Source: Desulfobacterales bacterium (GTDB lineage Bacteria; Desulfobacterota; Desulfobacteria; Desulfobacterales; JALSRD01). From it: a stretch of 64,000 nucleotides of DNA. Each line of letters opens with the position of its first letter. Positions within the stretch are counted from its first letter, which is position 1. The notes beneath the pieces were generated by a model that had not been told where the DNA came from, did not search any database, and saw only the letters and a program-made list of their open reading frames with translations. Made by a program: the position numbers and the translations under genes. Shown in pieces: positions 58 through 48,759 of the stretch. The stretch lies in contig JALSRD010000041.1 in the NCBI GenBank assembly GCA_026984935.1, positions 62,001 to 126,000 on the forward strand, given 5' to 3'.

Positions 58-276
58 CTATACTTCGGAGGGTGTTCTCCCTCCGAAAGATTGGTGAGGG
101 CGTTCATCATTGTAAAAAACGAAGTATCTCTTCAGACCAGCCACGAGCTCTGCCACGCTCTCGTAGTCCCGGATATAGATGTCTTCGTATTTGACCGTAG
201 GCCATAGATCCACCATGATGTTGTCCATGGCCCGGCCTTTGCCGTCCATGCTGATGGCAATGAAAGTATTCCGAAC
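58..276 (-). pseudogene. IS3-family transposase (orfB/integrase) 3' remnant
   Basis: This is the C-terminal end of an IS3-type DDE integrase. The sequence shows the family motifs ISMDGKGRAMDN, TVKYED, FVFYNDERPHQ and TPSEV before a stop at the low-coordinate end. The catalytic glutamate normally found in the VERLWRTVKYE block is gone: the block reads MVDLWPTVKYE, one residue short. The open frame extends upstream only to about position 276, where it runs into sequence related to the dispersed repeat found elsewhere in this window. No orfA and no IS ends are visible. It is a dead fragment, and it marks this edge as a site of past insertions. Confidence 0.8.
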
Positions 277-376
277 ATACCCATTTAGTAAAAAGCGCTG
301 GCTTTAATTCAAAGGCAACCATAGGATAATATTTCTAATTTAAAAGTTTACAAAATTGTCTGTGCAGGATTCAGGT
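271..376 (+). repeat. Partial, diverged copy of the dispersed MITE-like repeat (copy D)
   Basis: The segment begins with CCGAACATACC, which is found inside the full repeat copies, and ends with CAAAATTGTCTGTGCAGGAT followed by TCAGG, the right end of the element. The middle is diverged and the left half is missing, apparently replaced by the IS3 remnant. The five bases after the end are TATTA, identical to the right flank of copy C at 48760. Confidence 0.65.
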
Positions 377-3997: not shown

Positions 3998-4516
3998 TTA
4001 CAACCCCATCATTGATTTGAAGACCGCGGCGTTGTCCGAGGTTTTCCCCTTGCCGCCCCGTAAAACACCTGCGATACCCCATTTTGGCAGGTTCTTGGTG
4101 TTTTTCGCGTTCTTAACCTCAGGGTTCTTAACAACAGCCGACTGAATCAAAAAAACTTCGGTCTGATCGATGACACTTTTGGGGATTTTTTTCGGGCTTC
4201 CGGGCAGACAAACAAAGAACATCACGGGCTTTCCTTTTTTGCCGGACCAGAGGACATCGTTATATTTCTTCAGTTTATGAGACTGGAAGGTCTCCTGTTG
4301 GAAGCCTTTGGTGGTTTGACCCACATACCAGGGCGTGTGGCCTTTCCCGGCTTTTAAAGCAAAAACATAGCAGCCGTGTTTTTTTCTGAAAGGTCTCGTA
4401 AATTCACTATCCCAGAATGAGGAAATTTCGTCGTCTGAGACGTGTTTTTTCAAGCCGGTTCCAGAAAATGGGATTTCAAAGGGTCCGAAAACTTTGAGAA
4501 GGGTTTCAGGCGGCAT
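3998..4516 (-). CDS. GIY-YIG-like domain protein of unknown role
   Basis: The 172-residue protein contains a variant GIY-YIG signature: GCYVFAL near residue 48 and WYVGQTTKG near 62, followed by a conserved-looking glutamate in QTEVFLIQ around 118. GIY-YIG domains are single-site endonucleases in UvrC, homing enzymes and stand-alone proteins. Here the first block is GCY rather than GIY. The C-terminus is basic and ends in a small tail (FKSMMGL). It starts 48 bases downstream of the decayed gene at 4564-6005, on the same strand, so the two may once have been cotranscribed. Nuclease activity is inferred from the motif only. Confidence 0.65.
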   Translation of the reverse strand: MPPETLLKVFGPFEIPFSGTGLKKHVSDDEISSFWDSEFTRPFRKKHGCYVFALKAGKGHTPWYVGQTTKGFQQETFQSHKLKKYNDVLWSGKKGKPVMFFVCLPGSPKKIPKSVIDQTEVFLIQSAVVKNPEVKNAKNTKNLPKWGIAGVLRGGKGKTSDNAAVFKSMMGL

Positions 4517-4563: not shown

Positions 4564-6005
4564 TTAATCTCTTCCGCTTTTATCGGTCGTATGTAAGTTG
4601 GGCTTAAATTTTTTAGAATTTCGGTTGGACTTTTGTTTGCCGCAGGCGGGACAAGCACTGTTGCAGACAGGGCAGAGCGGATGCAGGTTTTCGCAGAACC
4701 GGAGATTCACGGTGCCCTGGCCGCAACCGGCGCATACCAGCGGGTCGACGGTTTTGGTCAGGGGGTTGTATATCATGGAGACACGTGTTCTTCGGCGGCC
4801 CACGGCAATGCGGTAGAGAATCTTGACCGCCGGTGTGCGAATCAGCTGCGCCGCGCACAGCCGGAGCTTGACGCGGATGCTGTATTTTTTTACCTGAATT
4901 TTGCAAGCGTCGCGTTTGCCGCCTATACAAGGCGCAGGGCATGCAGCTGTAGTATACAGACGCAAATGCCCTGCAACATGGTAGAGGCGGTAAAATCGGC
5001 GCTCCCGCAGGGCAGACAATTTTGAAGTCAAAATGGAAGGTTTCCGAACATACCAATGACGCTAAAAAATATCGCGCTGCATCCATAGACAACCATGAGA
5101 TAACATTACAATCTTATAAGTTTTCAAAATTGTCTGTGCAAGATTCAGGTTTTAACAGGTCCCGGCGTTTCCTCTTCAGTTCCGCGGGAATCAGGCGGAT
5201 TTTTTCCTGGCGCTCGGAAATCAGCTGATCGGACAAACCAGTGCGCCGCAAGCTCTGTTGCATTTCCTGCCGCGCATCAAACGATCAAACCCCTGGCTTT
5301 TGAGGTAGTGAAACTTCAAATGATAGCTGACCACCGGCACCGACGCCCCGGCGGTGGCCAGCATGGGCTCGAGTAGCGCTGAACCCTAACTTACCGCGTG
5401 GGGCCCGCTGGCGTCGGCGTTTGGGTTTACGATCAGGTGATCGGGCACTTCCAGACGCCGGGCGAGTTCGCCTGACATGAGGACTTCAAGGCCCTGGAGG
5501 GTAGGTTCCGTTACGGGGCCATGCTCCCGGAAGAAGTGTTGCGTGAATTGCTCCAGGCTGTGGTTGGAGTCAGAGTTCAAAGTTTTCCCCGAAAAGTTTT
5601 TCATCCAGAGATTTTGTTTTGCCGTACTGGGTTTTCGAACGTTTCAGGCGTGCCGCCAGCTGGTTGAAACCGGTGTCGCGCGCTTTCTGGGAATCGGATT
5701 TTATCCAGATATCGTACACCCTTCCTGAAAAATCTTTTTCATCGCGAACACGTCCCAGGATCATGTCGATTTCGACGCGGGTCAAAGGGGCCCGGAAAGA
5801 AGTTTCATCCGTGGAAATGGTGACCGGGATTTCGGGAAGCCGGCGGGTTTCGGGTTGTCGCTTAGCGGCTGGCTTTGGGCTGCCGGCGGCGGTTGATTTT
5901 GCTGCGGTGGCCGCCTTGCCTTGCGGTTTCGCCGGATCGAGCGGGGTTTTGGCTTGCACTTCGGTTTTTGCTGCTGCCGGCGGCGGCAGGAAAATTTTAT
6001 GGAAT
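4564..6005 (-). pseudogene. Decayed gene of unknown family, interrupted by repeat copy A
   Basis: Reading from high to low coordinates, successive frames give coherent protein pieces. They are an Ala/Pro-rich start followed by TSFRAPLTRVEIDMILG; then LEQFTQHFFREHGPVTEP; then PVVSYHLKFHYLKSQGFDRL; then SLRRTGLSDQLISERQEKIR; then, after the inserted repeat, YSIRVKLRLCAAQLI and a C-terminus with a cysteine cluster (LVCAGCG, LHPLCPVC, CPACGKQ). At least two frame changes and stops (near 5570-5604, 5386 and 5270) separate the pieces. The cysteine cluster suggests zinc binding. I do not recognise the family. The 5' end near 6005 is set by an in-frame stop and may itself be truncated. Confidence 0.6.
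4893..5149 (+). mobile_element. MITE-like dispersed repeat, copy A
   Basis: A 257-bp element with inverted ends: left CCTGAATTTTGCA, right (read inverted) CCTGAATCTTGCA. It is flanked by TTTTA on both sides (4888-4892 and 5150-5154), a likely 5-bp target duplication. It interrupts the decayed gene at 4564-6005. Removing the element and one TTTTA rejoins the frame as D-L-L-K-K-Y-S-I-R. Inside, CAGGGCAT (4935-4942) pairs with ATGCCCTG (4966-4973), and CAGACAATTTTGA near 5014 pairs with TCAAAATTGTCTG near 5124. It has no transposase, so movement would need an enzyme encoded elsewhere. Confidence 0.85.
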
Positions 6006-8770: not shown

Positions 8771-9022
8771 CCTGAATCCTGCACAGACAATTTTGAAAAT
8801 TTTGAATTAGATATATTATCCAGTCGTTACCTGTGAATTGCACCAGGTGTTGTTTGCCTGACGGATATGCTCGGCATGCTTCCATTTTTTTTCAAAACTG
8901 TCTGCCCTGCGCAAGCGTCGATTTCACCGCATCTACCGTGTTGCCGGGCATTTGCGGCAACCCACTACAGCTGCATGCTGCGCCTTGTATAGGCGGCAAA
9001 CGCGACGCTTGCAAAATTCAGG
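8771..9022 (-). mobile_element. MITE-like dispersed repeat, copy B (inverted)
   Basis: In the minus orientation this 252-bp segment matches copy A through its left third (terminal CCTGAATTTTGCAAGCG and GCCGCCTATACAAGGCGCAG), the TCTGCCCTGC-GAG-CG block and its right end (TTTTCAAAATTGTCTGTGCA). The stretch between is more diverged. Flanking 5-mers are TAAGA (8766-8770) and TGAGA (9023-9027), four of five matching. It lies between gph and vapC and carries no gene. Confidence 0.8.
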
Positions 9023-48502: not shown

Positions 48503-48759
48503 CCCGAATCTTGCAAGCGTCGCGTTTGCCGCCTATGCAAGGCGCAAGGCATGCAGCTGTGGGGGGCTACCGCAAATGCCTTGCAGCGCAGTAGATGCGG
48601 TGAGATCGGCACTTTCGCAGGGCAGACAATCTTGAAGTCAAAATGGAAGGTTTCCGAACATACCAATGACGCTAAAAAATATCGCGCTGCATCCATAGAC
48701 AACCATTAGATAACATTACAATTTTATAAGATTTCAAAATTGTCTGTGCAAGATTCAGG
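48503..48759 (+). mobile_element. MITE-like dispersed repeat, copy C
   Basis: This 257-bp copy is colinear with copy A and nearly identical in its right 140 bases (for example TGGAAGGTTTCCGAACATAC and CGCTGCATCCATAGACAACC). Ends are CCCGAATCTTGCA (left) and CCTGAATCTTGCA (right, inverted). Flanking 5-mers are TGTTA and TATTA. Its internal hairpin is CAAGGCAT (48545-48552) with ATGCCTTG (48576-48583). It lies between leuS and lptE. The rest of the 48319-48831 spacer holds no gene. Confidence 0.85.

Follow-up and report, generated by a model that had tools for sequence, protein, structure and literature searches.

A 257-bp MITE-like insertion in a relic gene of a Desulfobacterales bacterium, with a hairpin splitting one of its terminal inverted repeats

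The window analysed here is a 64,000-nucleotide stretch of a contig (JALSRD010000041.1) of a Desulfobacterales bacterium, whose genome is denoted G000. Near its left end lies a 257-bp MITE-like element with a hairpin at its left end, called copy A (4893–5149, plus strand), recognised by its matches elsewhere in the same genome, their uniform length, and its DNA fold. It is bordered by two TTTTA target-site duplications (4888–4892 on the left and 5150–5154 on the right), both assigned by reading the junction and comparing the copies. Copy A separates two halves of a minus-strand reading frame: the upstream half, QEMQQSLRR...RRDLLK (5155–5271), aligns without gaps to its protein family at 57–65% identity, and the downstream half (4564–4892), starting with KYSIRVKL and comprising a Cys-rich C-terminus, is 45–61% identical to the homologues. 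Further upstream on the same strand is an N-terminal remnant of the host gene with one TAG stop (5272–5585, boundaries approximate, from piecewise alignment to homologues) and, beyond it, an ORF (5570–5959) whose C-terminal part looks by inspection like the tail of a SNF2-type helicase, the remainder of the helicase being missing. Just downstream of the host gene the minus strand bears a 172-aa ORF (3998–4516), putatively of the GIY-YIG type judging by eye. The window also contains three other, older copies of the element: one of 257 bp and 89% identity (48503–48759, plus strand), one of 252 bp and 79% identity (8771–9022, minus strand), and a truncated one comprising the right half only (259–375, plus strand).

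The right terminal inverted repeat of copy A is unsplit (5123–5149, plus strand; reverse complement CCTGAATCTTGCACAGACAATTTTGAA) and ends with TGCAAGATTCAGG at 5137–5149, the end motif of this type of element being CCTGAATYTTGCA. Read inward, it consists of CCTGAATCTTGCA directly followed by CAGACAATTTTGAA. On the left (all plus strand), the first 13 nt of the repeat, CCTGAATTTTGCA (4893–4905), differ from the right end by one mismatch and are followed by 107 nt (4906–5012) that fold as a hairpin, conserved and with compensatory changes, after which the repeat resumes with CAGACAATTTTGAA (5013–5026), matching nt 14–27 of the right end in 14 of 14 positions. The inverted repeats thus measure 13 nt with one mismatch, and 27 nt once the hairpin is skipped. 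The DNA-fold z-score of the whole element is −8.3. Copy A carries no transposase frame and is, at 257 bp, too short for one.

Removal of 4893–5149 together with one TTTTA, as proposed in an earlier note on this DNA, proved exact: it yields a single minus-strand frame of 152 aa that includes RRDLLKKYSIRVKLRLCAAQLIRTPAVK and reads D-L-L-K-K-Y-S-I-R-V-K-L-R-L across the joint, with the codons AELKRKRRDLLK and KYSIRVKLRLCAAQLIRTPAVK meeting at the junction. The insert and the duplication add up to 262 bp, which is not divisible by three, so the insertion broke the reading frame. However, an open joined frame is weak proof by itself, because joined frames of at least 150 aa are also obtained at 11 of 22 other copies examined. 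Moreover, judged by copy A in isolation, the ends could be shifted leftward by three or more bases into a run of T with no change to the empty site. The element ends are fixed instead by the symmetry of the inverted repeats and by the other copies; the neighbouring T and A are target sequence, outside the element, since duplications AAATA (twice) and TATTT also occur. The earlier note had taken the junction as direct evidence of insertion that settled the ends and the duplication length. The insertion, its 257 bp and the 5-bp duplication stand, but the frame at copy A does not suffice on its own, and the proof is carried by the homologues and the copy statistics. A 155-aa minus-strand ORF at 4564–5031, which gene-calling software could annotate, is chimeric, with its start derived from the MITE and the remainder from the host relic.

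The search for uninterrupted homologues that the earlier note had recommended was run with the fused 135-aa sequence. Of 389 genomes sampled from the order, 65, its own included, contain a match, as do eight named contigs, mostly from Desulfobacterales or Desulfobacteraceae metagenome assemblies. The protein is contiguous through the junction in 32 of 32 loci compared, with a wholly gapless alignment in 26 (some of the 32 were found in both searches and are the same sequence). For example, RRDLLK and KYSIRVKL, which meet at the junction in the window, correspond to KADLFKKYSIRVKL in one homologue; a second uninterrupted junction reads DELERKKADLFKKYSIRVKLELC. Both flanks, which the note had described as reading as protein, align to the same proteins and are adjacent there, and the repeat is part of none of the homologues compared, so neither of the two outcomes named in the note as refuting an insertion was found. 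Related genomes therefore provide insert-free homologous proteins, corresponding to the empty site expected of a MITE.

In the G000 genome, copy A has 41 matches, most of them 94–98% identical, which indicates recent spread; nearly all full copies are 257 bp long. The end patterns were found at 57 left and 53 right ends, with no matches to the reversed control patterns; these are numbers of ends rather than of copies because many contigs end inside the element. Both flanks could be read at 30 copies; an exact 5-bp duplication borders 24 of these (shuffled mean 2.6, maximum 8), in most cases starting with T and ending with A, and among the lengths from 3 to 8 tried over these copies no length except 5 gave an exact match. 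Hence the element has the features of a MITE—terminal inverted repeats, a target-site duplication, and short, multiple, dispersed copies—and copy A is confirmed as a 257-bp insertion with a 5-bp TTTTA duplication in a minus-strand frame, its ends and duplication length being established by these observations. Internal-deletion forms of 165 and 184 bp (L016 and L042) with intact ends and 5-bp duplications were also noted. No matches to the element were found in plasmids and viral contigs.

The account in the earlier note implies that an intact gene was interrupted by the repeat, which is at odds with the premature stop, the loss of some 125 residues, and the reduction of the neighbouring helicase to its tail. 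Intact homologues of the host protein are about 350–415 aa long, and most have the Cys-rich C-terminus; between the N-terminal remnant and the upstream half about 125 homologue residues are absent and the frame changes. In the locus L098 the homologue directly follows a gene for a 727-aa SNF2-type helicase, in which helicase domains were found, and the end of the 5570–5959 ORF matches, by inspection, the last ~70 residues of that helicase. The two genes of L098 (78–3384; SNF2-type helicase and a Cys-rich protein of ~370 aa) form a two-gene unit, and the helicase resembles those of defence systems, its best PADLOC match being DrmD. For the host protein itself, neither Pfam nor NCBIfam had a family scoring above the cut-off, and none of the PADLOC matches was convincing. 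The host gene is thus a pseudogene, a relic with at least two lesions besides the insertion. The insertion may have come before or after inactivation and need not have been its cause.

The plan of copy A, a left repeat split after nt 13, recurs in 17 elements of six genomes (G000, G022, G029, G066, G070, and G088), selected for showing paired ends, which carry quite different inverted-repeat sequences. The inserted stretch is 105–109 nt long in 13 of them and 115–131 nt in the other four. Past the split, 10–14 of 14 positions match the right end (shuffled maxima 10–11), G029_203 being the sole element not exceeding its own shuffles. An alignment of full elements shows that the hairpin core is common to the members. 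Copy A belongs to an order-wide group of elements of ~200–285 bp whose left repeat, ~27 bp in length, is split by a hairpin of ~107 nt. Searching 96 sampled relatives with a covariance model located the hairpin in 43, and as many as 37 were scored in one genome. The papers searched, whose coverage was incomplete and did not include the original description of the element Chunjie, contained no description of such a group, which is apparently widespread and undescribed.

In an alignment of 15 hairpin sequences, 14 of 28 pairs are changed on both sides and 94.2% of the cells are paired, values that flatter the structure, since it was derived from this very alignment, whose members are related. 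Pairing falls to 29–40% when the partner is slid, and none of 500 shuffles reached the observed values. Helix 4, with double changes in eight of its nine pairs, would be hard to explain without conserved pairing. Two observations speak against an essential hairpin. L042 has lost most of it while keeping an exact duplication, a loss that may have followed insertion, and two copies in G022 (L068 and L070) show apparently the same inner-hairpin deletion with the basal stem left, suggesting that the element could move in a version lacking the inner arms. Four loci (L054, L060, L180, and L034) have an extra small palindrome, GTCCCGCC...GGCGGGA, where the hairpins usually have AGATGCGG.

The enzyme responsible for the movement of copy A can be approached through its ends. 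Matches to PF13701, the transposase of the IS1380 family, occur in 141 of 389 genomes of the order, and several of these loci (L109, L114, and L120) resemble copy A in their ends and carry T/A-rich duplications of 5 bp, for instance CCTAAAAAATGC with TGTTA, CCCGGATCCTGC with TTTAT, and CCCAGATTCTGC with TTAAA. The end sequences and the duplication size point to an IS1380-type transposase as the probable mover. No element with ends identical to those of copy A was found among the PF13701 loci inspected, and the hairpin was present at none of the 30 IS1380-type loci in which it was sought. In the G000 assembly there were no matches to PF13701, PF01609, or PF13546, and inspection by eye of a set of unpaired element ends revealed no recognisable transposase beside them. 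Because the assembly contains no PF13701, the element is labelled IS1380-like in its ends and not an IS1380 derivative. A multi-copy IS could be missing from the assembly, as the latter breaks at many copies; the source of the transposase has been lost, lies outside the fragmented assembly, or belongs to a different type.

The complete genome G070 shows a different duplication length, 4 bp, exact in 7 of 18 cases (0.8 after shuffling), in forms such as TTAG, CTAA, and TTAA. This difference, 4 bp in G070 versus 5 bp in G000, suggests that different transposases move elements sharing the hairpin. IS701 was considered as the mover in G070 on account of the YTAR-like 4-bp duplications, but was rejected, there being no PF13546 match in that genome; the two PF13546 loci in G022 had no ends matching the element. 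In the single 3.9-Mb contig of G070 the end motif CCCGRATATTTCAYGA (with up to two mismatches) occurs ~247 times, versus 4 for the reversed pattern, and some of these motifs are paired only tens of bases apart.

The best explanation, to which a probability of about 90% is given, is that copy A is a MITE transposed in trans by a DDE enzyme, presumably of the IS1380 type, into a SNF2-helicase unit that is now a relic, with the hairpin as a probable functional part. The transposase would recognise the inverted repeats and join the element to the T/A-rich target with a 5-bp stagger, whose filling-in would give the TTTTA duplication; the target would have been a gene of the two-gene unit, today carrying several lesions. 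The hairpin would most likely fold on a single strand exposed in the course of transposition and mark the left end. Its conservation with compensatory changes argues that it serves, or once served, a function in these elements. A broader proposal, of an order-wide MITE superfamily in which the same covarying hairpin of ~107 nt is kept, across differing inverted repeats and duplication lengths, as a functional cis-structure for more than one transposase, is put forward tentatively, at less than even odds.

The notion that copy A is no insertion at all, the frame match being fortuitous and the flanks coming from different proteins, draws on the frequency of open joined frames in the genome, but can practically be dismissed given the adjacency of both flanks in the same proteins of many genomes and the presence of the repeat, with duplications of its own, at dozens of other places. 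The role of the hairpin leaves more room for alternatives. It might act once transcribed into RNA, and not as DNA, for instance by regulating the expression of the transposase in a parent element since lost. Covariation is equally expected of an RNA, and pairing cannot separate the two; nevertheless, such an RNA seems doubtful, since nothing in the window reaches an Rfam gathering score, the matches in four loci stayed below the threshold, the hairpin has no Rfam entry, and a parent element was not found. It is rather unlikely that the hairpin is an independent REP-like mobile repeat, inserted once in the left repeat of a MITE and passively carried since. One G070 copy (L170/L055) does have the hairpin without recognisable ends, L026 and L206 are similar in the hairpin only, and some elements have lost much of it, but hairpin-only copies can be decayed elements, the hairpin occupies the same offset within a paired-end element in most loci examined, and the compensatory changes speak against passive carriage.

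Bacterial MITEs are usually viewed as shrunken insertion sequences, with selection acting on little beyond their ends. The insertion of copy A is by itself ordinary, a MITE in a dead gene; the interest lies in the wider group with its fixed, covarying hairpin within one inverted repeat. There, one end of a MITE holds a structured module whose base pairing is kept by compensatory change in many lineages, and the split-repeat group offers a way of testing whether MITEs can retain a cis-structure aiding their own movement. For annotation, the 155-aa chimera described above illustrates how MITE-type repeats give rise to mixed ORFs.

Among known systems, Chunjie, a 235-bp MITE of Geobacter uraniireducens, has inverted and direct repeats and is present in 38 copies of 178–235 bp, one of them within an operon (reviewed in PMC10969869). 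As described there, it resembles the copy A group in being a multi-copy MITE with size variants; the terms "hairpin" and "IS1380" are both absent from the review text. The IS1380 family (PF13701), which includes ISEcp1, has, at several loci of the order, ends starting with CCT or CCC that are similar to those of copy A, together with 5-bp T/A-rich duplications, but its members are ~1.6 kb long, encode a transposase, and lacked the hairpin where tested. REP/REPIN repeats, associated with RAYT (Y1) transposases, are, like copy A, short, multi-copy, hairpin-forming, and non-coding, whereas the copy A group differs from them in its terminal inverted repeats, its target-site duplications, and its length of 200–285 bp.
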